Shown one piece after another: positions 13,172 through 29,655 of a stretch of DNA of 47,876 nt. The notes beneath the pieces are model-generated. The model was not told the origin of the DNA. It made no database searches and saw nothing but the letters and a program-made list of their open reading frames with translations. Each line of letters starts with the position of its first letter. Positions within the stretch are counted from its first letter, which is position 1. Source of the stretch: Pseudomonadota bacterium (GTDB taxonomy: Bacteria > Pseudomonadota > Alphaproteobacteria > SP197); NCBI GenBank assembly GCA_027592745.1, contig JAQCLG010000009.1, positions 1-47,876 of the forward strand, in the 5' to 3' direction. A program made the position numbers and the translations under genes.

Positions 13172-14341
13172 CTACTTGTAGGGATCCGCCGCGTCGCGCA
13201 GACCGTCGCCCAGGAAGTTGAAGGCCAGCACGACAACAATCACGGGCACGACCGGCAGCATCAGCCAGGGGTAGAGCGCGACGACGTTGATGTTCTGGGC
13301 CTCGTTGAGCAGCACGCCCCAACTGGTGATCGGCGGGCGCAGGCCCAGGCCGAGGAATGACAACGCCGTCTCTCTTAGCAGCAACGAGGGGATCGAAAGC
13401 GTCGCCGAGGCGATCAGGTGGCTGGTGAAGCTGGGCAGCAGGTGGCGGAAGATAACCCGTTTCGGCTTGGCCCCCATGAGCACGGCTGCGGTCGCAAAGT
13501 CCTCCTCGCGCAGGGAAAGCAGCTTGGAGCGCACGGCGCGGGCCAGGCCCGTCCAGTCGAACAACCCCAGGATGATGGTGATGCCGAAATAGACCAGGAT
13601 CGGGCTCCAGGTCACCGGCAGGGCGGCCGAGAGTGCCATCCACAGCGGCAGTTCGGGGAAGCTGCGGATGATCTCGATCAGGCGCTGCACGACCGAATCG
13701 ACCCAGCCGCCGTAATAGCCCGAGAGACCGCCCAGCACGATGCCGAGGAAGAAGCTGATGGCGATGCCGATCAGGCCGACGGTGAGCGAGATGCGCGCGC
13801 CGTAGAGGATGCGCGAGAGCATGTCGCGGCCCAGCCGGTCGGTCCCCAGCAGGAACATCTCGCCGCCCTCTGCCGGACACGCGAGATGGAAGTCCATGGG
13901 GATGACGCCCCAGAACTCGTAGGAGTCGCCCGAGCAGAAGAAGCGGATCGGCTGCACGTTCTCCCGGTTGGAGGTGTAGACCCGCTGTAGGTTCTCCATG
14001 TCGAGGTGGTAGTCGAAGCCATAGACGAAGGGCCCGACGAACTCTCCCTCGTGGAACAGGTGAATCGCCTGGGGCGGGGCGTAGAGGTGGTCGACGTGGC
14101 GGCTGTGCAGGTTGTAGGGCGCCAGGATCTCGCTGATCAGGATCGAGAAGAAGGTCAGCGCCAGCAGGACGCCGGAGAACACCGCAAGCTTGTGGCGGCG
14201 GAACTTCCACCACATCAGGCGCCACTGGCTGGCGAGATAGAAGCGTTCCTGGGCGGGTGTCAGAACCTCGACCGAAAGCGGATCCCATGGTTCGTCGTTG
14301 ACGTAGCGCGGGATGGCGGGAGCCTTGCTCGTGTCGCTCAT
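13172..14341 (-). CDS. Peptide-type ABC transporter permease (OppC/YejE-like)
   Basis: The 389-residue inner-membrane permease has a cytoplasmic lead of about 45 residues and TM1 (HKLAVFSGVLLALTFFSILI). A large periplasmic insert of roughly 100 residues follows, rich in aromatic and acidic residues (YAPPQAIHLFHEGEF, FFCSGDSYEFWG). Then comes FLLGTDRLGRDMLSRILYGARISL, the OppC signature, and five more helices. The EAA loop, which docks the ATPase, reads EDFATAAVLMGAKPKRVIFRHLLP. The insert is the mark of a subgroup of alphaproteobacterial peptide importers. Its ATG overlaps the preceding permease stop (ATGA). It is the last gene of the long minus-strand chain and ends in TAG after DAADPYK. Confidence 0.9.
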   Translation of the reverse strand: MSDTSKAPAIPRYVNDEPWDPLSVEVLTPAQERFYLASQWRLMWWKFRRHKLAVFSGVLLALTFFSILISEILAPYNLHSRHVDHLYAPPQAIHLFHEGEFVGPFVYGFDYHLDMENLQRVYTSNRENVQPIRFFCSGDSYEFWGVIPMDFHLACPAEGGEMFLLGTDRLGRDMLSRILYGARISLTVGLIGIAISFFLGIVLGGLSGYYGGWVDSVVQRLIEIIRSFPELPLWMALSAALPVTWSPILVYFGITIILGLFDWTGLARAVRSKLLSLREEDFATAAVLMGAKPKRVIFRHLLPSFTSHLIASATLSIPSLLLRETALSFLGLGLRPPITSWGVLLNEAQNINVVALYPWLMLPVVPVIVVVLAFNFLGDGLRDAADPYK

Positions 14342-15336
14342 TTCGCGGCTCCCCCGGCGAGGCGGATGCGGGGATCGAGCACGGCCAGCAGCAGATCGGA
14401 GATCAGCACGCCGATCACCGTGAGCAGGGCCAGGCACATCAGGAAGGAGCCGGCCAGATACATGTCCTGGGTCTGCAGCGCGCGCAGCAGGATCGGGCCG
14501 GTGGTCGGCAGGGACAGCACGACCGAGACGATCACCGCCCCGGAGATGACCTGGGGCAGCAGGTTGCCGATGTCGGCGATGAACGGGTTGAGCGCCATGC
14601 GCAGCGGGTACTTCAGCAGCGCCCTGCTGGGCGAGAGACCCTTGGCCCGGGCGGTGACGACATACTGCTTCTGGAGTTCATCCAGCAGGTTGGCGCGCAG
14701 CCGCCGGATCAGGCCCGCGGTGCCCGAGGTGCCGATGACGATGACCGGGATCCACAGGTGCTCGAAGACCGAGACGACCTTGCCCCAGGTCCAGGGCTGG
14801 TCGACGTACTGGGGGTCCATCAGGCCGCCGATCGAGGTGCCGAACCAGACGTTGGCGAGGAACAGCAGCAGCAGGGCGAGCAGGAAGTTGGGCGTCGCCA
14901 GGCCCAGGAAACCGATGAAGGTCAGCCCGTGGTCGCCCCAGGAATACTGGTGCGTGGCCGAATAGACGCCGATCGGGAAGGCCACCGCCCAGGTGAAGAG
15001 GATGGTGACGCCCGAGACGATGATGGTGAGCAGCAGGCTCTCGCCGATGATCTCGTTGACCGGCTTGTTGTATTCGAACGACAGGCCGAGATCGCCCTGC
15101 ATCAGGTCGGTGACCCAGACGATGTATTGCTGCCACATCGGCTTGTCGAGGCCGAACTCCTGGCGGTAGATCTCGACCTGCTCGTTGCACGAGCTTTCGC
15201 CCTGGGCCTCGCACTCGGCGATCATGGTCGAGAGGAAATCGCCCGGCGGAAGCTGGATGATGATGAAGGTGATCAGGCTGATGCCGATCAGCGTGGGCAC
15301 CATGATGAGGATGCGCTGCACGACGTAGCTGATCAT
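14338..15336 (-). CDS. Peptide-type ABC transporter permease (OppB/YejB-like)
   Basis: The 332-residue permease has TM1 MISYVVQRILIMVPTLIG, a periplasmic loop with Cys residues at QGESSCNEQ and CEAQ, five further helices, and the EAA loop VTARAKGLSPSRALLKYPLR before the last helices. The length and the QMWQQY-type region match OppB-like proteins. The first periplasmic loop carries two Cys residues (ECEAQGESSC), which might form a disulfide; that is inference. The gene lies 43 bases after the substrate-binding protein and overlaps the next permease. With 13172 it forms the heterodimeric membrane channel. Confidence 0.9.
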   Translation of the reverse strand: MISYVVQRILIMVPTLIGISLITFIIIQLPPGDFLSTMIAECEAQGESSCNEQVEIYRQEFGLDKPMWQQYIVWVTDLMQGDLGLSFEYNKPVNEIIGESLLLTIIVSGVTILFTWAVAFPIGVYSATHQYSWGDHGLTFIGFLGLATPNFLLALLLLFLANVWFGTSIGGLMDPQYVDQPWTWGKVVSVFEHLWIPVIVIGTSGTAGLIRRLRANLLDELQKQYVVTARAKGLSPSRALLKYPLRMALNPFIADIGNLLPQVISGAVIVSVVLSLPTTGPILLRALQTQDMYLAGSFLMCLALLTVIGVLISDLLLAVLDPRIRLAGGAAK

Positions 15337-15379: not shown

Positions 15380-17296
15380 TCACTGGTCCCTGCCGTCGTC
15401 GCCGTCGACGTAGAAGAAGGTATCGGGCTGGTACATGCCGAACTGGCTGCCCGGATCCCAGTTGAAGATGGCTTCCTCGGGCACGTTCATCATGCGGTCG
15501 GAAACCACGACCGGCTGGAGCGTGCCGGCCACGATGCCGATGGAATACACGCCGTCGGCCCAGAGTCCCAGGATCTCGTTCCAGATCGCGCGCCGCTGCG
15601 TCATGTCGCGCGCGTGCCGCCATGCCTCGTAGAGCGCCATCAGGCGAGCCGGTTCCTCCATGTCGACGGGTTCGCCCGATGCCCCGCCGGTCTCGTTGTA
15701 CTGGCCCCAGGCCGGCCACTGCAGACCCTGCTGGCTGGTCGGCGCGAACTCGGCCGGGCTCATGTCGGCGGTCGGGATGCCGTTCTCTAGGCCGAACCAG
15801 ATCGCCATGACGGTCTGGCCGGCGAAGATGCGGTTGCGCAGAACATCGCGCTGCAGCGGCTTGGAAAAGACCTTGATGCCGATCTCGCCCCAGGAATCGT
15901 GGATCAGCTCAAGGATGTCGGTCTCCTCGGGATCCTCGCCCGCGGTCTCGACGATGATCTCGAGCATCCGCCCGTCGGGCATCAGCCGGTAGCCGGCGTC
16001 GTTGCGCTCCGTCAGGCCCATGGCATCGAGCAGGGCGTTGGCCTGGTCGATGTCGTACTGCGCCCAGGCCTCGCGGAAGGCCGGTTCGTAGAGCGGCGAG
16101 GCCGGCATCACGGTGTTCTGCCCCTCGATGCCCAGGCCGTAATAGATCACCTGGTTGATCTCGTGGCGGTTGATCGCCAGCGACAGGGCGCGGCGGAACC
16201 GCACGTCGCGCAGCAGCTCGCGCCAGCCCGGATCGGCGACCGACATGTTGGGATAAAGCGCGAGCTGGCTGCCGCGTGCCGTCTGCCAGAGGCGCACGCG
16301 GTAGTCGTTGTGGTCCTCGCCTTCCTTGAGGAAGGTATAGTCGGAAAAGGCTAGGCCGCGCGCCTGCAGGTCGGATTCCCCGGCCCAGGTCTTCAGCGGG
16401 ATCAGCTTGGCATCGACGACGTCCATGACGACGCGGTCGATGTAGGGAAGCTGCCGGCCCTCTGCATCGACCTTGTAGTAGTAGGGATTGCGCTCGCCGA
16501 CGAAGCGCTGGGACGGGGCGGCATTGGTGATGCGCCAGGGCTGCAGCGTCGGCAGGTCGGGGTTGTCGAACTTGTAGAGGTTGTCGAGATCGTTGTGCAG
16601 GGCTGCCCAGCCCGAAAGGCTGCGCTCGGCGGCCAGACGCGCCAGCTCATCGGGATCGCCGTAGTCGGCGTGGTAGGGCTTGAGAAAGTGCGAGGGGCGG
16701 TAGATGAAGAGCGGCGCGGCCGCGGCCATGGCCGGCAGGAAGTCCGGATTGGGCCCCTCCCAGGTGTAGCGCACGGTCGTCGCGTCGATCACCTCGAAGA
16801 CCGGCAGCTTGCCGTCGACCAGCAGGATGCTTGGTGGCCCGGCGGGCGAGAGTTCGGTGTTGAGCGCGACATCCTCCCACCAGTAGCGGAAGTCCTCGAT
16901 GGTGAAGGGCGCACCGTCCGACCACTTGTGGCCCGGCCGCAGGTGCAAGGTGAAGATGCGGCCGTCCTCGACCTCGAAGGATTCCAGGATGTCGGGCGCC
17001 AGATCCAGGTCCTCGTCGTAGCCGACCAGGCGGGCGTAGCCGAAGACGACCAGAAGGCGGGTGTCCTTGGCGCGGTTGATCAGCATGCGCCAGTCGCCGC
17101 CATAGACGCCCAGCGCCCGCCCGTCATCGACCACCAGGGGGTGGTCGGGCAGGCGCTGCGCCAGCGGCGGCAGTTCGCCTTCCGCAATCTCCTCGGCCCA
17201 GTACGGAACGTCCTCGGCGACCTGTGCGACGGCCGGAGCGACCGCAGCCGGAACCGCCACGAGCAGGGCCAGGACAAGAAAAACGCGGCGCATCAT
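15380..17296 (-). CDS. ABC transporter substrate-binding protein, peptide/SBP_bac_5 family
   Basis: The 638-residue periplasmic protein starts with a signal peptide: basic MMRR, a hydrophobic core FLVLALLVAVPAAVAPA, and a probable cleavage after AVA-Q. SBP_bac_5 features follow: GGDWRMLI near residue 65, FTLHLRPGHKWSDGAPFTIEDF, a NPYYYKVD element, and RRALSLAINRHEINQVIYYG with the conserved Arg/Asn/His pattern. The length is at the long end of the family (YejA is about 600). The many aromatic residues and acidic patches suit peptide binding, but ligands of such proteins range widely. The ATG overlaps the ATPase stop (ATGA). It is encoded third in the transporter part of the operon, after the fused ATPase. 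Confidence 0.9.
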   Translation of the reverse strand: MMRRVFLVLALLVAVPAAVAPAVAQVAEDVPYWAEEIAEGELPPLAQRLPDHPLVVDDGRALGVYGGDWRMLINRAKDTRLLVVFGYARLVGYDEDLDLAPDILESFEVEDGRIFTLHLRPGHKWSDGAPFTIEDFRYWWEDVALNTELSPAGPPSILLVDGKLPVFEVIDATTVRYTWEGPNPDFLPAMAAAAPLFIYRPSHFLKPYHADYGDPDELARLAAERSLSGWAALHNDLDNLYKFDNPDLPTLQPWRITNAAPSQRFVGERNPYYYKVDAEGRQLPYIDRVVMDVVDAKLIPLKTWAGESDLQARGLAFSDYTFLKEGEDHNDYRVRLWQTARGSQLALYPNMSVADPGWRELLRDVRFRRALSLAINRHEINQVIYYGLGIEGQNTVMPASPLYEPAFREAWAQYDIDQANALLDAMGLTERNDAGYRLMPDGRMLEIIVETAGEDPEETDILELIHDSWGEIGIKVFSKPLQRDVLRNRIFAGQTVMAIWFGLENGIPTADMSPAEFAPTSQQGLQWPAWGQYNETGGASGEPVDMEEPARLMALYEAWRHARDMTQRRAIWNEILGLWADGVYSIGIVAGTLQPVVVSDRMMNVPEEAIFNWDPGSQFGMYQPDTFFYVDGDDGRDQ

Positions 17297-19185
17297 GCCG
17301 CCTCCCCCGTGGGCACGCCGCTGGCGCGCACCATGTGGCCGTTGCCAATGTCGACCATGCGCAGGCCCGCTCCCTCGCGCACCGTGAAGGGTTCGGGCCA
17401 GGCGTCCGGCTGGGAAGCGCGCCCGGCCATCAGCGCGGTCAGGTCGAGGCGCCGGTCGGGATTGGGTTCGGGCACCGCGGCGAGCAGCGCGCGGGTATAG
17501 GGATGGGTCGGGTTGGCAAAGAGGTCGGCGCGCTGCGCCGTCTCGACCAGACGGCCCGAGCACATCACCGCAATGCGGTCGGCCATGTAGTCGACCACCG
17601 CCAGGTTGTGCGAGATGAACAGGTAGGTCAGCCCCAGCTCGGCCTGCAGGTCCTTCAACAGGTTGAGGATCTGGGCCTGGATCGAGACGTCGAGCGCCGA
17701 GACCGGCTCGTCGCAGATCAGCAGTTCGGGTTCCAGCGCCAGGGCGCGGGCGATGCCGATGCGCTGGCGCTGTCCGCCCGAGAAGCTGTGGGGGTAGCGG
17801 CGCAGGTGGCGGGCATCCAGCCCGACCAGCGCCATCAGCTTCATCACCCGGTCGGCGCGTTCGGCCTGGGTGCCGACGTTATGGATCAGCAGCGGCTCGG
17901 AGATGATGTCGTAGACCGTCATACGCGGGTTCAGCGAACCGAAGGGGTCCTGGAAAATGAACTGCACCTTGCGCCGGTAATCGAACAGCCTGTCGCCCTC
18001 GAGCGCGGCGATGTCGACCGCGTTGCCGCGATCGTTGAAGACGATGCGCCCGGAATCGGGCGTCAGCGCCTTCATGATCATCTTGCTGGTGGTCGTCTTG
18101 CCGCAGCCCGATTCGCCGACCAGCCCGAGACACTCGCCGCGGCGCACCTCGAAACTGACGTCGTCGACCGCGAGATGGCGCACGGTGCCGCGCGTCATGA
18201 AGCCGCCCTTGCGCACGTCGAACCCCTTGCTCAACCCCTCGACGGAGAGCAGCGGCCCGGTGGCGCTCTCGGGCCAGGGCACGCGGGTGCCCATGGAACT
18301 GCCCGGCTCGTGCTTGATCTCGCGCAGCGGCACCAGGCGCTCGCCGGGTTTCATGTCGAAGCGCGGCACCGCGGCGAGCAGGCCCTTGAGATAGGGGTGC
18401 CGGGGATCGCCGAAGATGTCCTTCAGCCCGCCCTGTTCCATGATGCGGCCGTGGTACATGACCACGACCTCCTCGGCGACGTTGGCAACGACCCCGAGAT
18501 CGTGGGTGATCATAAGCACCGCCATGCCCAGTTCGTCCTGCAGGTCGGCGATCAGCTTGAGGATCTGTGCCTGGATCGTGACATCGAGCGCGGTCGTGGG
18601 TTCGTCGGCGATCAGCAGAGAAGGGCGGCAGACCAGCGCCATGGCGATCATGGCGCGCTGGCGCAGGCCGCCCGAAAGCTCGAAGGGATAGCTGCGGAAG
18701 GCCTTGGCCGGATCGGGAAAGCCGACCAGGCGCAGCATCTCGATGGTGAGCTCGCGTCCCTCGGGCCTGCTGCAGTTCCTGTGCAGGAACAGCGCCTCGC
18801 TGACCTGATCGCCCACGGTGTGGAGCGGCGAGAGCGAGGTCATGGGTTCCTGGAAGATGATCGAGACGGTGCCGCCGCGGATGGCGCGCATCTTCGGCCC
18901 GTCGGCGGGCAGGGCGGCGATATCGACCGGTGCGGCATCGGGCCGGGAGGGATCGTGGAGCAGGATCTGGCCGCCGGTGATCCGCGCGCTCTGGGGCAGG
19001 ATGCGCATGATCGTCTGGCTGATCACGGTCTTGCCCGAACCGGACTCGCCCACCAGGGCCAGGGTCCGCCCCGGGCGAATCGCAAAGGAGACCCCCTTGA
19101 CCGCCTGGACCGTGCCGTCGCCGACCCGGAAGTCGACCTTGAGGTCGCGGATGTCGATCAGGGGGGTCACGGCCGGGGCGTTCAC
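17293..19185 (-). CDS. Fused dual ABC transporter ATPase (DppD-DppF/YejF-like)
   Basis: The 630-residue protein contains two complete ABC ATPase domains, as in YejF. The first has Walker A GESGSGKT (residues 46-53), signature [10 protein letters not shown] and Walker [13 protein letters not shown]. The second has GESGCGKTT, signature [16 protein letters not shown] and [12 protein letters not shown]. Each half ends with the oligopeptide-type C-terminal extension ([30 protein letters not shown]), so both catalytic sites look active. It drives the importer made with 15380, 14338 and 13172. The start is GTG 19185, overlapping the upstream small membrane gene's TGA by GTGA. This links the transporter genes to the glycosyltransferase chain rather than to a promoter of their own. 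Confidence 0.93.
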
Positions 19186-19694
19186 AGGTGATCGTCCGGC
19201 AGGCTGCCGGGAGAGACCGCAAAACCCATGGCGTCGAGGTTGGCCCGCGTCACCTCCGAAAGCGCCAGGTCGTTGGCGCGGGTGGCGTGGAGCGCTGCGG
19301 CCACGACGGCGTCGAAGCCGTCGAGCGACGAATCAAAGGACATGCTGGTACCGCCTCCCCGCAACTTCAGTTCCATCCAGCCCTTGGCCTTGGTGCGTCC
19401 CGTCGAGAAGTACGCCAGCTTCATGACGGCAAGATCGCGCCATGCCAGGGACCGCGGCCATGGACCGTGGATTTGCAATCCCTGTACCGACAGGGTGACG
19501 CCCGAGCGATGCCGAAGGAAGGTGCGCGCCCCGAACGCCAGAAACACCGCCCCCACGGCCCCAAGGATGTAGACCATGATGGAGCCGCCCTGAACGACAA
19601 GCAGGGGCGCCAGGCAGAGAAACGCGCCGACGCCCGCGCGCAGGTAGTCGGCGACCAGGGTCTTTGTCTCGTATCGATAGGGCGTTGTGTCCAT
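19182..19694 (-). CDS. Two-helix membrane protein with a cytoplasmic C-terminal domain, unknown
   Basis: The 170-residue protein has a polar lead, two adjacent hydrophobic helices (about residues 18-35 and 38-58), then a beta-rich soluble part with GVTLSVQGLQIHGPWPRSLAWRDL, which resembles a PH-like fold of small bacterial membrane proteins. A helical end follows with two alanine-rich stretches. I do not recognise a named family. It begins five bases after the deacetylase-like gene and overlaps the ATPase start by GTGA, so it bridges the two parts of the operon. A role in either glycan processing or transporter function is possible. Confidence 0.6.
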   Translation of the reverse strand: MDTTPYRYETKTLVADYLRAGVGAFLCLAPLLVVQGGSIMVYILGAVGAVFLAFGARTFLRHRSGVTLSVQGLQIHGPWPRSLAWRDLAVMKLAYFSTGRTKAKGWMELKLRGGGTSMSFDSSLDGFDAVVAAALHATRANDLALSEVTRANLDAMGFAVSPGSLPDDHL

Positions 19695-19699
19695 GCGGG

Positions 19700-20464
19700 T
19701 CAGGCGTCCGGTGCGAAGACGGCGGCGGCATCCTGCCAGCATCCGGCCGGATGATCCCGTGTCGCCGTCACAAATCGGGCGACAAAGCCGTCGCAGGCCG
19801 CATCATGGACCCTGTGATGGGTCATCAGCCCCGTCGGCTCGGCACCATCGGCCATGCCGGTGCGACGGCGGGCCAGATGATCGCAGGCTGCGGCCAGTGC
19901 CACACCCTCGCCGGCAAAGCCGCCGCCGCCTTTCCAGGCGACGATGTCGATGTGCACGTTGGCGATGGCCAGACCGTCCTCCCGCGCATGGCGACGCGGC
20001 CCCAGGATCGACAGGCCGGAAAAGCCGCGCGCGGCAAGGTCACGGGCGACGCGGGCATCGATACGATTCCAAGGCGGTACCATGACCCCATGGAAGCCCG
20101 ACCCGAAGGCATGGGCAAGCAGGGAATGTCCCTTGCTGAGACAGTCCGCGAGATCGCCCGTGCCCCCGTCGTCGACGAGTTCGCACTTGCGCCGCTCCGG
20201 CCCCGCCCGGTTGGCGTGGGCATAGCCGTGCTGGAGCACGCTGGCCCCGGGATCGGCGCGTAGAAGGGCTGCGCTGGTTTCCTCCAGCCAGGCCGGCACG
20301 ACCGCCAGGGCCAGGGGCACGCCGAGACCGCGCCGCAGGTCGAGCAGGCCGGGAAGCCTGCCGTCGTCGGGCCCCGCGTCGTCGTCGCGCCACCAGAAGG
20401 TCGCTGTGCGGCCGGCCTCGCCCCAGAGGTCGAGTTCGCGCTGCAGGTCGCCCCAGTCAGCCAT
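19700..20464 (-). CDS. Polysaccharide-deacetylase-like (NodB-homology-type fold) protein
   Basis: The 254-residue protein contains WWRDDDAG (Asp27-29), LQHGYAHAN with His79 and His83, and VPPWNRI around residue 128. These are in the order of the metal-binding and catalytic motifs of carbohydrate esterase family 4 (an Asp pair, HxxxH, and an R/P-x-P-W-type motif). It lacks a signal peptide, so it probably acts on a cytoplasmic, perhaps lipid- or nucleotide-linked, glycan rather than on an extracellular polymer. Its ATG overlaps the preceding glycosyltransferase stop by eight bases. I infer that it trims an N-acetyl group from the product of the adjacent glycosyltransferases. The variant motifs leave room for a non-catalytic role. 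Confidence 0.7.
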   Translation of the reverse strand: MADWGDLQRELDLWGEAGRTATFWWRDDDAGPDDGRLPGLLDLRRGLGVPLALAVVPAWLEETSAALLRADPGASVLQHGYAHANRAGPERRKCELVDDGGTGDLADCLSKGHSLLAHAFGSGFHGVMVPPWNRIDARVARDLAARGFSGLSILGPRRHAREDGLAIANVHIDIVAWKGGGGFAGEGVALAAACDHLARRRTGMADGAEPTGLMTHHRVHDAACDGFVARFVTATRDHPAGCWQDAAAVFAPDA

Positions 20465-21596
20465 GGGCGGCCCACCCGGCAAGCAGGCGCGCGCTGGTCG
20501 GCGCGCCCGAGAGATCGATCGTGGCCGCAGGAGGAGGCGGCAGTTCGAGCGCGCGGTCGACCGCAGCCGCCAGGGCTGCCGGATCGAGACGGTCCTCGGT
20601 GAGGACCACGGCAAGGCCGTGTTCGGCCATGATCTGCGCCCTCTCGCCCTGTTCCGTCTCACCCTCGGCGCCATAGGGCACCAGCACGGCACGGGCACCG
20701 GCCACGAACAGGTCGGTCGCGGTGTTGTAGCCAGCCTGGGAAACCGAGACGGCGCAATTGGCAAGCAGGAAGGCGAAATCAGCGCGGTTGGGCTCGATCG
20801 CCAGGCCCGGCGCTTGGTCGATCCCCTCGGCAAGACCGGCCTCGCCGAGCAGCAGGCGCCAGGTCCGCCCTGCGGTCAGGCGCGAGAGCGGTCGGGCCGC
20901 CGCCGCGGCCTGCAGCAGGTTGCGCCCGACTAGGCCCCCGCCGACCGAGACGATGACCTCGTCGCGGCCGGCTGCATCCGCCGCCCGAAGAGCCTTGCGG
21001 GTATCGGCGACGTAGCCGGTGTGGATCACCCGCTCGCCCAGCAGGGCGGCGGCCGGAAAGCTGACATCCAGGCGCACCAGGGCGGGATCGCCATGGACCA
21101 GAACGGCATCGTAACGCTGCTGGGCGGTCTCGATCATGGTCGCGATGCGGTCGGGCCGGGATTCGCGCTGCAGGATGTCGCGCACGGAGGCCACGACGAG
21201 CGGCGGGCGTCCCAGGCGGCCGGCCGCATCGAGCAGTGCGAGAACCTCGGCGCGCAGGCTGCGGCGGCCGAACGGGAAGGTTTCGGTGACGACCACGGCG
21301 GGTGCCTCTTCGGCCACGAGGGCTTCGAGCATGGCGCGCCGTCGCGCCATCAGCGCATCGTCGGCCGGGCGACCCTCGCCATCGACCATGGCGCGGAACC
21401 CGGCATCGGCGGCGCGCAACGGCGGCAACTGCACGAGCCGGGCCTCGCCGAGGTCGAGATTGGAGAGCGGCAGGCCACCGCTTGCCACGACGCAACGCAC
21501 TCCCAGGGCCGCGGTGGCATGCGCGATCGCGGCGGTACGGCGCAGGTGGCCGCTGCCCAGCAGGTGCTGAACCCAGAAGAGCACGCCGCCGCTCAC
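20457..21596 (-). CDS. MurG-like (GT28-type) glycosyltransferase, copy 2
   Basis: A 379-residue GT-B protein. The N-terminal motif QHLLGSGHLRRTAAIAHA (residues 10-27) is a GxGH loop of the MurG/UGT kind. The C-terminal half has VSVGGGLVGRNL and SQAGYNTATDLFVAGARAVLVPYG, the usual donor-binding region. GEGETEQGERAQIM-type residues follow. It is the second of two related proteins in the operon; the other begins with SHDSFGLGHLRR. GTG 21596 overlaps the phosphatase stop by GTGA. The donor and acceptor are unknown. The absence of predicted membrane helices suggests a soluble or membrane-surface enzyme. Confidence 0.8.
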   Translation of the reverse strand: MSGGVLFWVQHLLGSGHLRRTAAIAHATAALGVRCVVASGGLPLSNLDLGEARLVQLPPLRAADAGFRAMVDGEGRPADDALMARRRAMLEALVAEEAPAVVVTETFPFGRRSLRAEVLALLDAAGRLGRPPLVVASVRDILQRESRPDRIATMIETAQQRYDAVLVHGDPALVRLDVSFPAAALLGERVIHTGYVADTRKALRAADAAGRDEVIVSVGGGLVGRNLLQAAAAARPLSRLTAGRTWRLLLGEAGLAEGIDQAPGLAIEPNRADFAFLLANCAVSVSQAGYNTATDLFVAGARAVLVPYGAEGETEQGERAQIMAEHGLAVVLTEDRLDPAALAAAVDRALELPPPPAATIDLSGAPTSARLLAGWAAHG

Positions 21597-22186
21597 AGGG
21601 CATGCTCCAGGGGCACGAGGGCGGGATCGGCCAGACGCACGCCCGAGGCATCGACCTCCAGCAGCAGCATGCTCTCGCGCATCAGGCGCAGCGGTGGCTT
21701 GCCCAGCATGGTCCAGCCGCAGGCAAGAACCAGGGCGGCGCGCTGGACGCCGCGATGGGTCAGCGCCACCACGGGGCCGCCCTCGGCGGAGATCTCGGCG
21801 AGCCAGGCTCCAAGACGTGCTGCAACCTCGCGCGGGCTCTCCCCGCCCTCGGGCCGGAAATCAAGGCCGGCCGCCTCGTTGGCGTCCATCGCCGTGCCCA
21901 GTTCCGCGCGCAGCCCAGCAAGGCTGCGCCCCGACCAGGCGCCCCAGTCCATCTCGATCAGGCGCGGTTCGAGGACGACCGAACCAAGGCCCATGGCGCC
22001 GGCAGTTTCGCGCGTGCGCCGCAGGGGGCTGGCGAACACCCGCCAGGAGGCAAGCCCAGCCGGCAGGCGCCAGCGCGCCGCCAGCGCCCGGCCGGCGGCG
22101 GACAACGGACGGTCGGCACGGCCCTGTATCAGTCCTGCCTCGTTCCAGTCGCTGGGCGCATGGCGCATCAGGGCCACCGCAGTCAC
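21593..22186 (-). CDS. Histidine phosphatase family protein (phosphoglycerate-mutase-like)
   Basis: This 197-residue protein begins VALMRHAPSDWNEAG, the histidine phosphatase RHG-type motif with His9 and Arg8. QGRADRPLSAAGR follows, then FASPLRRTRETA with a conserved Arg, a Glu in LIEMDWGAWSG, and the second catalytic His in VVALTHRGV. The active-site set is complete. The start is GTG 22186, overlapping the upstream GT4 stop by GTGA. In this setting the likely substrate is a sugar phosphate or a glycan or lipid phosphate intermediate, but alpha-ribazole phosphatase-like or PGM activity cannot be excluded. The stop overlaps the start of the second MurG-like gene. Confidence 0.85.
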   Translation of the reverse strand: MTAVALMRHAPSDWNEAGLIQGRADRPLSAAGRALAARWRLPAGLASWRVFASPLRRTRETAGAMGLGSVVLEPRLIEMDWGAWSGRSLAGLRAELGTAMDANEAAGLDFRPEGGESPREVAARLGAWLAEISAEGGPVVALTHRGVQRAALVLACGWTMLGKPPLRLMRESMLLLEVDASGVRLADPALVPLEHAL

Positions 22187-23304
22187 GGCGCCCTCCGGCG
22201 ACAGGCCTCGGCGATGGCGCGGCCCAGCGCCTGTTCGGCCGCCGGGATGCCATGGTGCATGCGGACATGTTCGGCCGCGGCGGCGCCCATGGCGGCGCGT
22301 CGGCGCGGATCGGCAAGCAGGGTCACGGCAGCCTCGGCAAAGGCCGCCGCATCGCCCTCGGGTGCGAGCAGGCCGGTCTTTCCGTGAACGACGATCTCGG
22401 GCACGCCGCGGGCGCGCCCCGCGACGACCGGCAGTCCGGCGGCCTGGGCCGAGAGCAGGGCCATGCCGTAGGCCTCGTTGACCGCAGGCCACAGGAACAG
22501 GTCGCAGGCGCCGAGCAGGCCGGGCAGGCTGCGCGGCGCGACACGCCCGACCATGTGGGCACGACCGCCCAGGAGTCCGGCGACCGCGCTCCGGCAGGGA
22601 CCGTCGCCGACGACGACCAACTCGAACTCCCCGCCCATTTCCGGCAGGGCCTGCGCCAGGACGCGGTAGGAGGCAAGCTTGTCGCCCGGGCGCATCATCG
22701 CCACGACCACGGCCCAGGGCCGCTGCGGATCAAGGCCCCACTGCGCCGCCAGCCGGCGGCGCTGGCCGGCGCGGCGCACCCGTTCGTGTGGTCCGGTGTC
22801 GAGGAAGGGCGCCAGGGGCACGATCCGTTCGGCGGGTATGCCCGCGGCAATCAGGCCGTCGGCATCTTCCGAGGTCACCGGCAGCAGCGCGTCGGCGCGG
22901 GCCAGCGCCGCCAGCGAGAGGGCAAATCCCGCCGCCCAGGGCCCGCGCCGCTGCCTGGGCGCTACCGAGGGTTCGGCCACGACATAGGGCAGGCCCAGCG
23001 CCCCGGCGACCCGCGGGCCCAGGTGGTCGGGAGCCTTGTGATAGAGGTGATAGGTGAACCACAGGTCGGGCGGCGCGTGCCTCCATGCCTCGGCTAGGTG
23101 CTGCGCCTGGGCGATCGCGCGGCGGGCGAGCTCATGCTGGCGCTTGCCATCGCCCGTGCCATCGTAGCAGCGCAGGCTTGATGCCAGTGTCACCGTATGG
23201 CCCATGCCGGCCAGGGTCGCCATCAGCAGGCGCGCCATGGCACGGTCGCCCGAGGGCACGCGGTGGCCGGGCGGTTTCATCGGGGCGTAGAAGGCGATCC
23301 TCAT
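22183..23304 (-). CDS. GT4 family glycosyltransferase (first of the two GT4 in coordinate order)
   Basis: The 373-residue protein starts MRIAFYAPMKPPGHRVPSGD and has the GT4 order: a GT-B N-domain with the acceptor loop, then WAVVVAMMRPGDKLASYRVL, ELVVVGDGPCRSAV and NEAYGMALLSAQAAGLPVVAG. The last is the donor-binding E-x7-E-type segment (E in NEAYG; the second Glu is replaced by Ser-Ala-Gln). Then comes GVPEIVVHGKTGLLAPEGD. The donor is a nucleotide sugar, type unknown. ATG 23304 overlaps the preceding GT4 gene's stop (ATGA). The change at the second position of the EX7E motif is worth noting, although the second Glu is not always needed. Confidence 0.87.
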   Translation of the reverse strand: MRIAFYAPMKPPGHRVPSGDRAMARLLMATLAGMGHTVTLASSLRCYDGTGDGKRQHELARRAIAQAQHLAEAWRHAPPDLWFTYHLYHKAPDHLGPRVAGALGLPYVVAEPSVAPRQRRGPWAAGFALSLAALARADALLPVTSEDADGLIAAGIPAERIVPLAPFLDTGPHERVRRAGQRRRLAAQWGLDPQRPWAVVVAMMRPGDKLASYRVLAQALPEMGGEFELVVVGDGPCRSAVAGLLGGRAHMVGRVAPRSLPGLLGACDLFLWPAVNEAYGMALLSAQAAGLPVVAGRARGVPEIVVHGKTGLLAPEGDAAAFAEAAVTLLADPRRRAAMGAAAAEHVRMHHGIPAAEQALGRAIAEACRRRAP

Positions 23305-24530
23305 GACCGCCCCCCAAGACCGAAGCGCGCCGACAGGTCGTCGATCCCGCCGTCCATGGCAAAGGCGCTGCGCACGCGCGCTTCGCCGGCCGCACCCATT
23401 GCCGCCCGGCGCCCCGGGTCGCGGATCAGGGCCTCCAGCGCCTCCGCCAGGGCGGGAGGATCGCCCGGCGCCACGAGCAGGCCGTTGACCCCGTGCGCGA
23501 TCAGTTCGGGCACGGCCGAGACGCGGGTTGCCACGGCCGCAAGGCCCTGGCTCTGGGCTTCCATCAGCACGTTGGGCAGGCCGTCGCGGTCGCCGTCGCC
23601 GGCGATGCGCGGGGCAAGGCAGAAGAGATCGGCGCTGCGGTAGGCCTCCAGCACCTCCTCCTGGGGCCGGGCGCCCAGCCAGGAGATGCGCGCGGCCAGG
23701 CCCGCCTGGGCGGCCTGTCGCTGCAGTGCCTCCTTCAGCGGGCCACCGCCGATGTGGACGAGGCGCCACGACAGGTGGGCGGGCAGCAGGGCGAGCGCGG
23801 CGACGAGATCGTCCAGCCCCTTCTTTTCCACCGCACGACCGACTGCGACCAGGATGACGGGGTCCCCGGGGGCACTGCCGTCGCGCGGCGGCCGTTCGGG
23901 CGCGGCGGGCCAGCGCGCCAGGTCGAGCCCGTGATAGACCAGCCCGACACGGCCCGGCGGGGCCAGGCGCGCCAGATGATCGCGGTTGGCCGCGGTGCAG
24001 GTCACCAGCCATCGGCAATCGGCGAGTTTCTCGGCAAGCTCCCAGTCGGGGGAGGTGTAGATGTCCTTAGCGTGGGCCGAACCGCTCCAGGGCAGGCCGG
24101 TCATCAAAGCGGCATAACGCGCGACCGAGGCCGGGGTGTGCAGGAAATGGGCATGGAGCCAGGCGACCCGCGGCGCCACCTCGGCCGCCAGGACGCAGGC
24201 CTGGCCGAAGCGGCGGATGCGGTTGGCACTGCGGTCGCGCGCCAGATCGGCCCGCCATGTCCGCCACGCCGCATCGTAGCCCGGCAGCCTTCGCGCCTTG
24301 CGCCATGCCGCCAGCACGCGCATGGGCTCGCGGTGGAGATATTCGGGCAGATAGGTCACCCGGGCGGCGATCTCGCGATGCACAGGATGGGTCCTGGTAT
24401 CGGTGGGATGGCGCAGCGAGACGATCTCGATCGCCAGTCCGCGCCGCTCCAGTGCGGCGATCTCCTGGGCGATGAAGCTCTCGGAAAGGCGCGGGTAACC
24501 CTTGAGGATGAAGGCGACCGGCGGCGTCAA
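23301..24530 (-). CDS. GT4 family glycosyltransferase (colanic-acid-type, KGYPRLSESF start)
   Basis: The 409-residue GT-B enzyme starts with FILKGYPRLSESFIAQEI, the hallmark of GT4 proteins in exopolysaccharide loci. It has VAWLHAHFLHTPASVARYAA, then HGLDLARW, LVAVGRAVEKKGLDDLVAAL, and GLPNVLMEAQSQGLAAVATRVSAVPELI with the conserved Glu. The EX7E motif is GDRDGLPNVLMEA (E before AQSQG). The start is TTG at 24530..24528, which overlaps the previous gene's TGA as TTGA. It is the only codon that fits the coupled chain, and the conserved start follows within 10 residues. The acceptor and donor are unknown. The chain position suggests it acts after the first MurG-like protein on the same glycan. 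Confidence 0.88.
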   Translation of the reverse strand: MTPPVAFILKGYPRLSESFIAQEIAALERRGLAIEIVSLRHPTDTRTHPVHREIAARVTYLPEYLHREPMRVLAAWRKARRLPGYDAAWRTWRADLARDRSANRIRRFGQACVLAAEVAPRVAWLHAHFLHTPASVARYAALMTGLPWSGSAHAKDIYTSPDWELAEKLADCRWLVTCTAANRDHLARLAPPGRVGLVYHGLDLARWPAAPERPPRDGSAPGDPVILVAVGRAVEKKGLDDLVAALALLPAHLSWRLVHIGGGPLKEALQRQAAQAGLAARISWLGARPQEEVLEAYRSADLFCLAPRIAGDGDRDGLPNVLMEAQSQGLAAVATRVSAVPELIAHGVNGLLVAPGDPPALAEALEALIRDPGRRAAMGAAGEARVRSAFAMDGGIDDLSARFGLGGRS

Positions 24531-25795
24531 CGTGCCGTCGAACGCTTGTCCCCGGCAGCCACGGTCAGCCGGCCCTGGCGCACGGCATGGGGCGTGCCGG
24601 CTTCCTCGCGGCCCTCGGCGAGATGCATCTGGACCAGCCGGTTGACGTTTTCCAGGCCGTCGAGCAGGCCGGGCACGACGACCTGGCTGGGACGGCGCTG
24701 CTGGGTGAGCTGGCGGATGGCCGTCGCCATGGCCTCGGGCACGGAGGCCTTGTCCTCGGTCAGCATGGAAATCAGTCCCAGTTCCTGGGCGCGACTGGCG
24801 CGGATGAGCTGCTCGCGGCGGGGGATCTGGCGCGGCACGATCAGCGCCGGCTTGTTGAAGGAGAGGATCTCGCAGAACGTGTTGTAGCCGCCCATCGTCA
24901 CGACGCCGGCGGCCGCCGCCATCAGCGCCTCCATGTGGGCATCGAAGGTGATGGCCGAGACGTTGCCCAGGCGTTCGACGCGCTCCTGGAACTCGGCCTT
25001 GGCCTCGGGCTGCATGAAGGGCCCGAACACGATCAACGCCGGGATTTTGGGCGCCATGGGCGATTCGTAGGCATTGAGCACCCAGTCGACGAGCGCCTCG
25101 CCGTCGCCGCCGCCGCCTGTGGTGACCAGGACGAAGGGTTTGGTGATGCCGTCGGGCAGCGGTGCGGCCGGCGGCATCTGGGGCACGCTGCGCTCCAGGT
25201 AGCCGGTATAGACCATCTTGCGTCGCACCGACTGGGGCACGTCGATCTCCGCCAGGGGATCGTAGACCTGGGGCAGGCCGTAGACCCAGATCTCGTCGTA
25301 GAGGTCGCGCAGCGCCGGCACCACCTTCTTGCGCCGCCATTCCGGCTTGAGCAGGACGGGATCGTCCATGACGTCGCGCAGGCCGAGGATGATCCTGGTG
25401 CCGCGGGCCTTCAGCATCTCGATCGTCTCGCGCACCTCGCCGCGCAGCCCAAGCGGCTCCTTGTCGACCAGGAAGATGTCGGGATCGAAGATGTCGGCGG
25501 TGTGCTGGATGATCGAGGCCCGCATCGCCATCGTCTGGTCGGTGTCGAGCAGCAGGTTGAGCGAGGTGTACTCGCCGTTGCGCAGCTTGATGACGCCGGG
25601 CACACGTACGAAGTCGACCCGCGCGCGGAAATCGAAGCTGCCGATGATCGGCGAACCCGAAAGGATCAGCACGGTCAGGTTGTCGACGGCGCCGACCATG
25701 GCATGCGCGATCGCACGACAGCGCCGGAGATGTCCCAGGCCGAAACTGTCGTGGCTGTAGATCAGCACACGCGGTCGCTGTGTGACCGTGGCCAT
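24527..25795 (-). CDS. MurG-like (GT28-type) glycosyltransferase, copy 1; first gene of the operon
   Basis: The 422-residue GT-B protein starts MATVTQRPRVLIYSHDSFGLGHLRRCRA-type, with the glycine-rich GLGHLRR loop at residues 19-25. VDKEPLGLRGEV and a D-rich segment follow; the C-domain has VLVTTGGGGDGEALVDWVL and MGGYNTFCEILSFNKPALIVP, then EQLIRASRAQELG. The nearest well-known relative by pattern is MurG, although this group is not known to work on peptidoglycan. It is the first gene of the minus-strand chain; GGGAG stands before ATG 25795. It is divergent from the ABC exporter-like gene, with 148 bases between them, so shared regulation is likely. Confidence 0.82.
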   Translation of the reverse strand: MATVTQRPRVLIYSHDSFGLGHLRRCRAIAHAMVGAVDNLTVLILSGSPIIGSFDFRARVDFVRVPGVIKLRNGEYTSLNLLLDTDQTMAMRASIIQHTADIFDPDIFLVDKEPLGLRGEVRETIEMLKARGTRIILGLRDVMDDPVLLKPEWRRKKVVPALRDLYDEIWVYGLPQVYDPLAEIDVPQSVRRKMVYTGYLERSVPQMPPAAPLPDGITKPFVLVTTGGGGDGEALVDWVLNAYESPMAPKIPALIVFGPFMQPEAKAEFQERVERLGNVSAITFDAHMEALMAAAAGVVTMGGYNTFCEILSFNKPALIVPRQIPRREQLIRASRAQELGLISMLTEDKASVPEAMATAIRQLTQQRRPSQVVVPGLLDGLENVNRLVQMHLAEGREEAGTPHAVRQGRLTVAAGDKRSTAR

Positions 25796-25858
25796 CCAGG
25801 CTCCCTTTCCCCCAACGGGTGGCGAACTATGCCACAGGGCCCCCGAGGACAAAAGGCG

Positions 25859-25905: not shown

Positions 25906-25943
25906 GCCGCCCGTTCGGGGTTCCGGGGGTACGGTCGTTCGGC

Positions 25944-28670
25944 ATGGAACGGACCATTTACGATTTTGTTTTCAAGTTTTCGAAGCGGGAGCAGATCTTC
26001 ATCCTGCTCTTCACCGTGTTCTCTTTGCCGTTCTACTACGTCTCCCTCGACATCCCGAAACTGATCGTCAACAACGTGTTGAACGAGATCGCGCCCGAAC
26101 TGAGCGCGACGACGGAGACAAGCGGCCTCGACGCCACCGTGGAGACCATCGCGCTCGACCTGGCACCGCGGCCCTTCGTGTTGATGGGCTACGAGATCAT
26201 CGACATGCACCGGCTGTGGCTGCTGGCGGTCTACAGCGGCCTCTTCCTGCTGCTGGTCCTGATCAACGGCGGCTTCAAGTACTACATCAACGTCTACAAG
26301 GGCCGCCTGGGCGAACGCATGCTGCGGCGCCTGCGCTACCAGCTCTACAGCCGCATCCTGCGTTTTCCCTTGCCCCATTTCCGGAGGGTCAGCGCCGGCG
26401 AACTGATCCCGATGATCACCCAGGAAGTCGAACCCCTGGGCGGCTTCATCGGCGATGCGCTGGCCCTGCCGATGTACCAGGGCGGACTGCTGATCACCGC
26501 GCTGATCTTCATCTTCATGCAGGACTTCTGGATGGGCCTGGCCTCGATCTCGCTCTACCCCATCCAGGGCTGGATCATTCCCAAGCTGCAGCGGCGCGTG
26601 AACCTGCTGGGCAAGGCCCGCGTGCGCGAGGTGCGCAAGCTTTCGGAGCGGATCGCCGAGACCGCCCACTCGGCCGAGGAGATGCATGCCAACGGCATGG
26701 CGCGCTGGGAACTGGCGGAATTCAGCCAGCGCATGGGGCGGATCTTCGAGATCCGCTTCGACATCTACAACAAGAAGTTCTTCATCAAGTTCCTCAACAG
26801 CATCCTCGCGCAGATGACGCCGTTCTTCTTCTATGCAATCGGCGGCTACTTCGTGATCACCGGCGACCTCTCCCTTGGCGGCCTGGTCGCCGTGCTGGCT
26901 GCCTACAAGGATCTGCCGCCGCCCTGGAAGGAACTGCTCAACCACTACCAGATCCAGGCCGACGCCGGGATCAAGTACGACCAGGTCGTCGCCCAGTTCG
27001 CCACCCCGGGCATGCGCGAGGAGGAGATCGTCTTCGGCGATGGCAACCCGCCCAGGCTCGAAGGCAACCTCGCTGCCGTGAACCTGAAGTACGAGGAGGA
27101 CGGCGATCTCCTGATCGAGAACCTGTCGGCCGAGATTCCCCTCGACATTCATGTCGCCATCGTCGGCGACGCCGTCAGCGGCAAGGGCCACCTTGCCCTG
27201 CTCCTGGCACGCCTGCTCGACACCAGCGGCGGCACCCTGCGCTTTGGATCGAACGATGCCGCCCAGCTGGACGAGGCGGCCACGGGTCGCACGATCGGCT
27301 ACGTCGGGGCGACTTCGCACCTTTTCTCGGCCCCTCTGGTCGACAATCTGCTCTACGGCATCCGCCAGAAGCCGCAGGCCCCGCGCGAGGCGCACGACCC
27401 CGCGCGTCGCCAGGCGCTGGAGCGGTATCTCGACGAGTCCGGCAAGACCGGCAACAGTATTGACGACCCCGATGCCGACTGGGTCGACATGGCGAGCCTG
27501 GGCATCGCGGATCGCGAGGCCCTGATCGAGGCGGTGCGGCATGCCCTGGTCGTTGCCGACATGGAAAACGACGTCTATCTGCTCGGCCTGCGCGGCACGC
27601 TCGACCCCGAGGCCCGGCCCGAGGCCGCACGGCGCCTGCTGGAGGCGCGCCACATGCTGCAGGAGCGCCTGGGCGAAAAGGCCTACAGCGGACTGGTCGA
27701 ATCCTTCGACCGCAGCGCCTACAACCTCAACGCCACGGTCGGCGAGAACCTGCTGTTCGGCACGCCGGTGGGCGATGCCTTCGATCTCGAGAGGCTGCCC
27801 CAGAACGCCTATGTCATGGAGACCCTGACCAGGGCCGGGCTGGTCGACGACCTGCTCGCCATGGGCCACGAGGTCGCCCAGACGATGATCGAGCTGTTCG
27901 CCGGCCTGCCACCCGATCACGAATACTTCGCCCAGTTCTCCTTCATCAGTCTGGACGACCTGCCCGACTACCAGGCGATCCTGCGCAAGGTCGAGCGCGA
28001 CGGCCTCGACAAGCTCGACGAGACCGACCGCATGATGCTGCTGTCGCTGCCCTTCAAGCTGTCGCCCGTGCGCCACCGCCTGGGCCTGATCGACGAGGCC
28101 TTCCAGAACCGCATCCTGGAAGCCCGCAGCGCCTTCGCCGAGAACCTGCCCGCCGACCTGCGGGCCTCGGTCGAGTTCTTCGATGTCGATCGCTACAATG
28201 CCGCCTCCTCGCTGCAGGACAACATCCTGTTCGGCAAGCTGGTCTATGGCCGCGCCCAGGCGCAGTCCAAGGTCGGCGAGTTGATGTCGCAGGTCGTCGA
28301 GGCGTTGCACCTGCGATCGACCGTGGTCGAGGTCGGGCTCGATTTCGAGGTCGGCATCGGCGGTGCCCGCCTGTCGCCGGCCCAGCGCCAGAAGGCCTCG
28401 ATCGCCCGCGCCGTGCTCAAGCGCCCGGCCATCCTCATACTCTCCGAGGCGACAGCTTCGCTGGACGGCGCCGCGCAGAGCAACATATTGAAGAACGTGC
28501 GCGAGGAATTCCGCGGCCGCCCGCTGATCTGGGCCATGCATCGCCCAAGCCAGGCACGCGGCTTCGATCATGTCCTGGTGATGGCTTCCGGCCGCCTCGT
28601 CGATCGCGGCGGCTATGACGAACTGGTCGAAAAGAGCTCGCTCCTGAGCGAGTTGATCGCGGCAGAATAA
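25944..28670 (+). CDS. ABC exporter-like protein with a degenerate, expanded nucleotide-binding region
   Basis: The 908-residue protein has an N-terminal exporter-type membrane domain with about six hydrophobic segments in residues 12-325 (for example FILLFTVFSLPFYYVSL and FLNSILAQMTPFFFYAIGGYF). A nucleotide-binding region of some 540 residues follows; a normal one is about 240. Its Walker A is GDAVSGKG (408-415), with Gly where Ser or Thr is needed. The signature is LSPAQ (810-814) instead of LSGGQ, and Walker B is ILILSEATASLD (830-841), with Ser for the Asp but Glu835 kept. The H-loop His866 is present. Between Walker A and signature are three copies of an N-[LI]-L-[FY]-G element: 467-472, 601-606, 759-764. 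The ATG is 25944. It heads a likely operon with the cNMP-binding protein (24 bases later). I infer export of the glycan made by the divergent operon. Confidence 0.8.
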   Translation: MERTIYDFVFKFSKREQIFILLFTVFSLPFYYVSLDIPKLIVNNVLNEIAPELSATTETSGLDATVETIALDLAPRPFVLMGYEIIDMHRLWLLAVYSGLFLLLVLINGGFKYYINVYKGRLGERMLRRLRYQLYSRILRFPLPHFRRVSAGELIPMITQEVEPLGGFIGDALALPMYQGGLLITALIFIFMQDFWMGLASISLYPIQGWIIPKLQRRVNLLGKARVREVRKLSERIAETAHSAEEMHANGMARWELAEFSQRMGRIFEIRFDIYNKKFFIKFLNSILAQMTPFFFYAIGGYFVITGDLSLGGLVAVLAAYKDLPPPWKELLNHYQIQADAGIKYDQVVAQFATPGMREEEIVFGDGNPPRLEGNLAAVNLKYEEDGDLLIENLSAEIPLDIHVAIVGDAVSGKGHLALLLARLLDTSGGTLRFGSNDAAQLDEAATGRTIGYVGATSHLFSAPLVDNLLYGIRQKPQAPREAHDPARRQALERYLDESGKTGNSIDDPDADWVDMASLGIADREALIEAVRHALVVADMENDVYLLGLRGTLDPEARPEAARRLLEARHMLQERLGEKAYSGLVESFDRSAYNLNATVGENLLFGTPVGDAFDLERLPQNAYVMETLTRAGLVDDLLAMGHEVAQTMIELFAGLPPDHEYFAQFSFISLDDLPDYQAILRKVERDGLDKLDETDRMMLLSLPFKLSPVRHRLGLIDEAFQNRILEARSAFAENLPADLRASVEFFDVDRYNAASSLQDNILFGKLVYGRAQAQSKVGELMSQVVEALHLRSTVVEVGLDFEVGIGGARLSPAQRQKASIARAVLKRPAILILSEATASLDGAAQSNILKNVREEFRGRPLIWAMHRPSQARGFDHVLVMASGRLVDRGGYDELVEKSSLLSELIAAE

Positions 28671-28693: not shown

Positions 28694-29173
28694 ATGAGCC
28701 TGCAGCAGGATGTCGATCTTCTCCGCAACATCCCGCTCTTTGCCAAGATCGAGCCCAGCAAGCTGAAGCTGCTCGCCTTCACGGCGCAGCGTCTGAGCTT
28801 CGGCGAGGGCGACGTGGTCTGCGAGCAGGGCGACGAGGGCGATTCGGCCTACATCATCATCGAGGGCGAGGCCGACGTGATCGTGGCAACCACGGGTGGC
28901 CCGGTCACCGTGGCAACCCTGAAGAAGAACGATTTCCTGGGCGAGACCGCGATCCTCTGCGACGTGCCGCGCACCGCCACGGTGCTGGCCCGCACCGACC
29001 TGGAGACACTGATGATCTCCAAGGATCTCTTCTTCCAGCTGGTTTCTCAGTTTCCCTCGATGTCGATCGAGATCATGCGCGAACTGGCCCGTCGCGTGGA
29101 GCGTACCACCGCGCAGTTGCGCGAGGCGGTTTCCCATGGCGGGGGCCCGGCAGTCACGCCGCGCGGCCCATGA
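28694..29173 (+). CDS. Cyclic nucleotide-binding domain protein
   Basis: This is a single cNMP-binding domain of 159 residues without a DNA-binding helix-turn-helix or kinase part. FAKIEPSKLKLLAFTAQRLSF is the N-terminal helix region. The phosphate-binding cassette FLGETAILCDVPRTATVLA (about 82-99) has the key Glu84 and Arg93 of a competent site. The C-terminal helices are amphipathic and long (EIMRELARRVERTTAQLREAV). The stop overlaps the start of the methyltransferase gene by four bases (ATGA), and the Shine-Dalgarno GGAG precedes ATG 28694. The placement 23 bases after the ABC gene suggests it senses cAMP or cGMP and signals to that transporter, as a subunit or peripheral regulator. A class III cyclase lies in the same window at 8706. 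Confidence 0.88.
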   Translation: MSLQQDVDLLRNIPLFAKIEPSKLKLLAFTAQRLSFGEGDVVCEQGDEGDSAYIIIEGEADVIVATTGGPVTVATLKKNDFLGETAILCDVPRTATVLARTDLETLMISKDLFFQLVSQFPSMSIEIMRELARRVERTTAQLREAVSHGGGPAVTPRGP

Positions 29174-29655
29174 GCCGTCTCGACAGCGTCATCCGGCGCC
29201 TGACCGCCCAGCGCGCCTGCCTGGGCCTTGCCGCGAGCCTGATCGAGGGCCTGGACGGCCATGTCCTGGAACTGGGCTTGGGCAACGGCCGCACCTTCGA
29301 CCACCTGCGCGAGATCCTGCCCGGCCGCGAGATCTTCTGCTTCGACCGTCAGGTCGCGGCCCATCCCGACTGCATCCCCGATCCCGACCACCTGTTCCTC
29401 GGCGAACTGGAGGCGACCCTGCCGCAAGCCGTGGCCCGGCTCGGTGCCCGGGCGGCCCTGGTGCATGTCGACATCGGCAGCGGCGACGAGGCCGCCAGCC
29501 GGCGCCTGGGCGCCTGGCTGGCCGGCCGCCTTCCGTCGCTGCTCGCGCCCGGCGCCGTGTTGATCTCCGACCAGCCGCTGCCGCAGCCGGACTGGCGCAC
29601 CCTCGAGCTGCCCGAGGGTGTCAGGCAGGGGCGCTATTTCCTTTACCGCGCCTGA
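29170..29655 (+). CDS. Small class I SAM-dependent methyltransferase
   Basis: The 161-residue protein has VLELGLGNGRTFDHLRE at residues 36-52, the SAM-binding motif I. REIFCFDRQVAAHPDC and VHVDIGSGDEAAS follow as the later Rossmann strands, and the end ISDQPLPQPDWRTLELP contains the motif IV region. It is short compared with most methyltransferases (200 or more residues) and has no added acceptor domain, so it may work with a partner or on a small molecule. ATG 29170 overlaps the cNMP-binding gene's TGA. The target is unknown; modification of the exported glycan or its carrier is an inference from location. Confidence 0.8.
   Translation: MSRLDSVIRRLTAQRACLGLAASLIEGLDGHVLELGLGNGRTFDHLREILPGREIFCFDRQVAAHPDCIPDPDHLFLGELEATLPQAVARLGARAALVHVDIGSGDEAASRRLGAWLAGRLPSLLAPGAVLISDQPLPQPDWRTLELPEGVRQGRYFLYRA

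Follow-up and report, generated by a model that had tools for sequence, protein, structure and literature searches.

A family of alphaproteobacterial ABC exporters with decayed ATPase motifs, a triplicated Q-loop element and a linked cyclic-nucleotide-binding domain

We analysed a 47,876-nucleotide stretch of an alphaproteobacterial contig (JAQCLG010000009.1; hereafter the window), which encodes a 908-residue ABC exporter that has lost catalytic residues of its ATPase. The loss extends across the exporter's family, whose members keep three copies of a Q-loop/first-helix element in the nucleotide-binding domain (NBD) and nearly always stand beside, or are fused to, a cyclic-nucleotide-binding (cNMP) domain. 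In our preferred reading, to which we give a probability of about 0.5, the protein exports or flips a glycan or glycolipid under cAMP gating, probably without hydrolysing ATP, and its NBD serves as a regulatory platform.

Domain layout and predicted structure

Re-reading of the open reading frame confirmed the coordinates, frame and residues of the initial annotation. The protein has the layout of a type IV ABC exporter (MsbA/ABCB-like), in which a six-helix transmembrane domain (TMD; PF00664, 5.8e-17) is followed by an NBD (PF00005, 9.6e-12, matched in two pieces), both Pfam matches lying above their cut-offs. A conserved insert of about 290 residues is located inside the NBD, between the Q-loop and the signature. 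The features of the exporter are listed below.

25944..28670, plus strand: ABC exporter with degenerate NBD, 908 residues (ORF translation, Pfam, structure prediction); TMD, residues 1-350; NBD N-terminal part, 375-475; insert, 476-767; NBD C-terminal part, 768-908
27165..27188, plus strand: degenerate Walker A, GDAVSGKG, residues 408-415 (ORF translation, alignment of 81 close members)
27288..27359, plus strand: repeat copy 1, degenerate Q-loop strand and DNLLYG, residues 449-472, DNLLYG at 467-472 (profile comparison)
27627..27761, plus strand: repeat copy 2, helix and VESFD..YN..ENLLFG, residues 562-606, ENLLFG at 601-606 (profile comparison, BLASTP)
28107..28235, plus strand: repeat copy 3, helix and VEFFD..YN..QDNILFG, residues about 722-764, DNILFG at 759-764 (profile comparison, BLASTP)
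28371..28385, plus strand: degenerate signature, LSPAQ, residues 810-814 (ORF translation, alignment of 81 close members)
28431..28451, plus strand: degenerate Walker B, ILILSEA, residues 830-836 (ORF translation, alignment of 81 close members)

Two long open frames overlap the exporter gene, at 25899-28571 (minus strand, 890 residues) and 24587-27463 (plus strand, 958 residues). The 958-residue frame had no Pfam match, and both are likely by-products of the 69% G+C content.

The AlphaFold2 monomer of the whole exporter had a pLDDT of 85.5 and a pTM of 0.80, with block values mostly above 90 in the NBD and insert and weak parts in the TMD. Foldseek matched exporters along the whole chain, the PDB matches including MsbA, P-glycoprotein and PCAT1. 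Modelled alone, the insert reached a pLDDT of 88.9. The isolated insert matched no PDB fold at E <= 0.001, which disfavours its origin as an imported known domain.

Loss of catalytic residues across the family

None of the three nucleotide-site consensus motifs is intact in the window protein, as the initial annotation had recognised. Walker A departs from GxxxxGK[ST] by carrying Gly at position 415 after Lys414, Walker B departs from hhhhDE by an Asp to Ser change at 834, and the signature reads LSPAQ rather than LSGGQ. The H-loop His866 and the Walker B Glu835 are retained. The spacing from Walker A to the signature is stretched to 397 residues (K414 to S811), close to the earlier estimate of about 395.

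The same decay was seen in the 108 aligned family members. The Walker A Ser/Thr occurs in 8 of them, the Walker B Asp in 17 and the signature Ser..Gly in 6, and the A-loop aromatic is usually replaced by Leu. When seven canonical catalytic features were scored over the 108, the maximum was five and seven members scored none. Two members, L084 and L116, have intact Walker A and Walker B motifs, and their signature is broken. In the distant members L098-L103 the whole P-loop and signature are gone. The usual motifs in the 81 close members are a Walker A with KD or KE at its end, a Walker B with Asn or Ser before Glu, and the signature LSxAQRQ; the P-loop Lys is retained in 60, the Walker B Glu (Glu835) in 67 and the H-loop His in 48.

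Homologues with normal Walker residues would have pointed to errors in the window sequence, and no member with a complete motif set was found among the 108. Sequencing error and a pseudogene can both be discarded, because the losses are family-wide, at least 327 loci encode relatives, and the gene is under purifying selection. The dN/dS value against L009, an 87%-identical relative, was 0.18 for the exporter and 0.225 inside the insert. The decay of catalytic residues throughout the family, with the repeats kept, supports the suggestion in the initial annotation that the transporter is possibly non-hydrolysing.

An Asp or Glu at the Walker A position (column 415) is paired with Asn or Ser at the Walker B position (column 834) in 61 of the 81 close members, and a swapped Mg2+ ligand position is possible. 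The family might thus be a working ATPase of an unorthodox kind, in which the acidic residue at the Walker A Thr position and the Asn/Ser at the Walker B Asp position rearrange the Mg2+ ligands, Glu, Lys and His still act, and ATP drives an export that the cNMP protein does no more than tune. The pairing and the frequent retention of Glu835, Lys and His agree with such an enzyme. However, the Walker A position is Gly in the window member itself, the signature is altered in nearly all members, and distant members without any motif still keep the TMD, the insert and the cNMP link. We consider this explanation unlikely.

Triplication of the Q-loop element

All three elements noted earlier, DNLLYG at 467, ENLLFG at 601 and DNILFG at 759, were found in the window exporter. 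Non-overlapping segments of the family profile were compared by hhalign, with 100 column shuffles as the null. Copies 2 and 3 aligned with a score of 75.9 (E 6e-13, 78 columns), against a shuffle maximum of 19.2, and they share 39% identity over 46 residues within the window protein (BLASTP) as well as a predicted secondary structure of strand, loop, short helix and strand. Copy 1 scored 29.9 against copy 2 (shuffle maximum 19.6) and 33.4 against copy 3, where one shuffle reached 34.5, so that the latter pair alone is borderline. All three segments aligned to the same Q-loop/NI(L/A)FG columns of ordinary exporters, scoring 59, 31 and 30 (shuffle maxima near 19-21), in a profile of seven sequences, six of them from the window's own genome; two control segments did not score above their shuffles against it. 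Chance resemblance can thus be rejected for copies 2 and 3 and, with less force, for copy 1. The relatedness of the three segments, to one another and to ordinary exporters, supports the internal duplication of an NBD subdomain that the initial annotation had proposed. The N(L/I)(L/F)(F/Y)G elements are real repeats, of which copies 2 and 3 are clearly homologous.

The repeat Asn is kept in 107, 108 and 108 of the 108 members for copies 1, 2 and 3, respectively. This near invariance implies that selection holds the repeats while the catalytic residues drift.

Family distribution and NBD-free relatives

The relatives at the 327 or more loci came from a scan of genome contigs. The best 80 of them are full-length and 47-87% identical, and they belong to Alphaproteobacteria, save for a small number of metagenome bins with other labels. 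A profile built from the insert only had matches in 131 of 385 genomes of the class; among 398 genomes drawn across the phylum it gave 31 matches, every one in the same class. The family also occurs on plasmids or chromids of Rhizobium, Sinorhizobium, Azospirillum and roseobacters. The TMD is the best-conserved large part (mean 0.665), and both TMD and insert persist in distant members that have lost all catalytic motifs. In two genomes (L099-L103) the fused form occurs as two or three paralogues per genome, with NBDs that have decayed completely.

Proteins of 412-434 residues that share the TMD (about 35-37% identity) but have no NBD are encoded on roseobacter plasmids, within copper-handling clusters. 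The genes (L121:9773-11077, L122:7773-9077 and L123:7761-8999) adjoin plastocyanin/azurin genes, with cytochrome c genes also present in L121 and L122. In a TMD tree these proteins group with the exporter family (88/92 support); the outgroup branches of that tree are long, so that the precise positions of L002 and L108 in it are uncertain. The window's own genome encodes a further TMD-only relative (L002:1537-2568, G000:C89) of 343 residues, 30% identical to the window exporter's TMD.

Linkage to cyclic-nucleotide-binding and cyclase genes

Two genes of the window suggest a connection of the exporter to cyclic nucleotides.

28694..29173, plus strand: stand-alone cNMP protein, 159 residues, with a PKA-like phosphate-binding cassette, GE..ILCDVPRTATV
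8706..9935, plus strand: membrane-anchored class III nucleotide cyclase, relatives of which flank the cluster elsewhere

No DNA-binding domain was found in the 159-residue protein, and its single domain makes a role as a transcription factor unlikely. A cNMP domain adjoins the exporter in 106 of 123 loci and is fused to it in 15, so that 121 loci have it and only L108 and L110 lack it; these counts are slightly inflated, as some loci are the same record twice. The PKA-like cassette is conserved across 108 cNMP sequences, and exporter and cassette-bearing domain thus recur as a linked or fused pair. One family member (L073:6001-9552) is fused to a cNMP domain plus a terminal GGDEF domain, and a link to c-di-GMP is possible. 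Several other genomes have a full-length relative of the cyclase (48-70% identity) at the flank of the cluster, and in further ones a more distant cyclase adjoins the exporter; a cyclase does not stand beside every cluster within the stretches examined. Regulation of the transporter, as the initial annotation had suggested, is supported by the conserved adjacency or fusion of the cNMP domain.

The glycosyltransferase and importer cluster

The exporter belongs to a cluster of about 20 kb that comprises the cyclase, an Opp-type importer, four glycosyltransferases, a phosphatase, the exporter, the cNMP gene and often a methyltransferase. Its remaining genes in the window are as follows.

29170..29655, plus strand: Methyltransf_17 (PF12692) methyltransferase, the usual third gene (Pfam, neighbourhood)
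24527..25852, minus strand: GT28-like glycosyltransferase, divergent from the exporter (domain match, neighbourhood)
23301..24530, minus strand: GT4-type glycosyltransferase, start approximate, mechanical ORF to 25340 (domain match, neighbourhood)
22183..23300, minus strand: second GT4-type glycosyltransferase, start approximate, mechanical ORF to 24018 (neighbourhood)
21593..22190, minus strand: histidine phosphatase superfamily protein, start approximate (neighbourhood)
20457..21596, minus strand: second GT28-like glycosyltransferase (neighbourhood)
19182..19742, minus strand: cluster-conserved 186-residue protein without a Pfam match (neighbourhood)
17293..19185, minus strand: Opp/Dpp-type double ATPase of the linked importer (neighbourhood)
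15380..17563, minus strand: SBP_bac_5 substrate-binding protein of the linked importer, start approximate (neighbourhood)
14338..15336, minus strand: OppB-like importer permease (neighbourhood)
13172..14437, minus strand: OppC-like importer permease (neighbourhood)

In 80 genome loci the order of divergent GT4 and GT28 genes, exporter, cNMP protein and, usually, Methyltransf_17 is largely kept. Most of 20 larger stretches from other genomes contain the same cluster, in the order OppC, OppB, substrate-binding protein, double ATPase, 186-residue protein, GT28, histidine phosphatase, GT4, GT4, GT28, exporter and cNMP. Sinorhizobium meliloti pSymB and R. leguminosarum have equivalent gene sets, rearranged. 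On pSymB a polysaccharide lyase gene (L120:102-1070) adjoins the cyclase in the cluster, a hint of a polysaccharide cargo.

The protein might be no transporter at all, and instead act as a receptor or scaffold in the membrane, reporting cAMP or organising the glycosyltransferases. Its fusions to cNMP domains and, in L073, to GGDEF would suit such a role, as would the NBD-free relatives in copper-handling clusters and the lost motor residues. However, the TMD keeps its match to the exporter family PF00664 and is the best-conserved large part, and linkage to glycosyltransferases is expected of a flippase. This interpretation seems improbable to us. Still more doubtful is a heterodimer of the TM287/288 or TAP kind, in which the protein would be the degenerate half and the catalytic half would come from a gene at another place in the genome. 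Asymmetric exporters with a single decayed site are well known, and the window's genome does encode other exporter halves elsewhere, but a second half lies nearby in only 1 of 123 loci, which removes a partner encoded next door, and the decay of the signature along with the Walker motifs would leave no composite site complete.

Proposed mechanism

The coupling helices of the TMD sit, in working exporters, in a groove formed by the Q-loop together with the adjoining helix of the helical subdomain. A coupling piece that is tripled and kept beside a decayed ATPase site fits a module that contacts the TMD and is driven by something other than hydrolysis. The cNMP domain is the most constant companion of the exporter, and a cyclase is often nearby; on these grounds we propose a cAMP-gated flippase or channel for the glycosyltransferase product. 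The protein would form a homodimer with the shape of an ABC exporter, its NBD would have ceased to be an ATP-hydrolysing motor, and the three Q-loop/first-helix copies would probably build an enlarged NBD-TMD contact. The dedicated cNMP protein, adjacent or fused and fed by the linked adenylate cyclase, would bind the NBD platform and open or close the transmembrane path. The cargo would most likely be a product of the divergently transcribed glycosyltransferases, either a glycan or a glycolipid, and the Opp-type importer may recover or sense a fragment of it.

The NBD-free relatives, the linkage to glycosyltransferases and importer and the near absence of a nearby second half (1 of 123 loci) favour this gated reading. 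Against it, many close members keep the P-loop Lys, Walker B Glu and H-loop His, so that nucleotide binding or slow hydrolysis may persist, and L084 and L116 have intact Walker A and B motifs. Uphill transport, moreover, is beyond the reach of a non-hydrolysing exporter. A broader idea, offered tentatively, is that an exporter family of the whole class has traded ATP hydrolysis for cyclic-nucleotide gating, with the triplicated coupling element as the base of an NBD turned into a cAMP-controlled switch, so that the former pump now acts as a gated path (flippase or channel) for an envelope glycan, and that related lineages have dispensed with the NBD.

Comparison with known systems

The window family shares PF00664, PF00005 and the TMD-NBD order with MsbA-type (type IV) homodimeric exporters, and MsbA was the best NCBIfam match of the exporter (2.7e-52, far below its cut-off). 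It differs from them in the lost Walker A Ser/Thr, Walker B Asp and signature, the repeat-bearing insert of about 290 residues between Q-loop and signature, and the near-constant cNMP partner. TM287/288, TmrAB, TAP and CFTR, the last a gated channel with an ABC fold, likewise have degenerate catalytic residues in an exporter fold. In contrast to these, the window family lacks a linked partner half at 122 of 123 loci, and it combines decay of both Walker motifs and the signature in one chain with an NBD insert. SUR1/SUR2 are also ABC proteins with an exporter fold that serves regulation and not pumping; their NBDs bind and sense Mg-nucleotides, whereas in the window family the nucleotide sites decay and a separate cNMP domain is linked.

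The NHLM bacteriocin exporters with cNMP proteins (TIGR03796/03797/03896) offer a further parallel. The window exporter matches TIGR03796 (4e-51) and the cNMP protein matches TIGR03896 (1e-11), a "bacteriocin-type transport-associated protein". However, all these matches fall below the curated cut-offs (174 bits against 853 for the exporter), and the window family stands in a glycosyltransferase context, theirs among bacteriocin genes.

In S. meliloti, SMb20813 has been named a homologue of msbA (PMC10945364). At a guess from gene numbering and position, it may be the pSymB orthologue at 841,723-844,372. Published work describes S. meliloti MsbA2 as an ABC exporter of polysaccharide, encoded in a pSymB region that has glycosyltransferase genes of its own upstream. 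The open-access literature searched on the exporter family, cNMP-linked ABC exporters and the S. meliloti locus tags held no functional description, an absence that is no proof of novelty.

Significance

A conserved ATPase is the defining feature of ABC transporters. The decayed ATPase of this family, its nearly unchanged tripled element and the putative cAMP-sensing and sugar genes alongside suggest that the transporter is not powered but switched. If a large family, class-wide and under selection, loses the ATPase and retains the TMD together with an enlarged coupling element, it would reveal how a pump turns into a gated device, which has otherwise been studied mostly in CFTR and SUR. The linkage of exporter and cNMP protein points to a direct, non-transcriptional output of cyclic nucleotides on envelope glycans in Alphaproteobacteria, which would extend to the genetically tractable symbiont S. 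meliloti.
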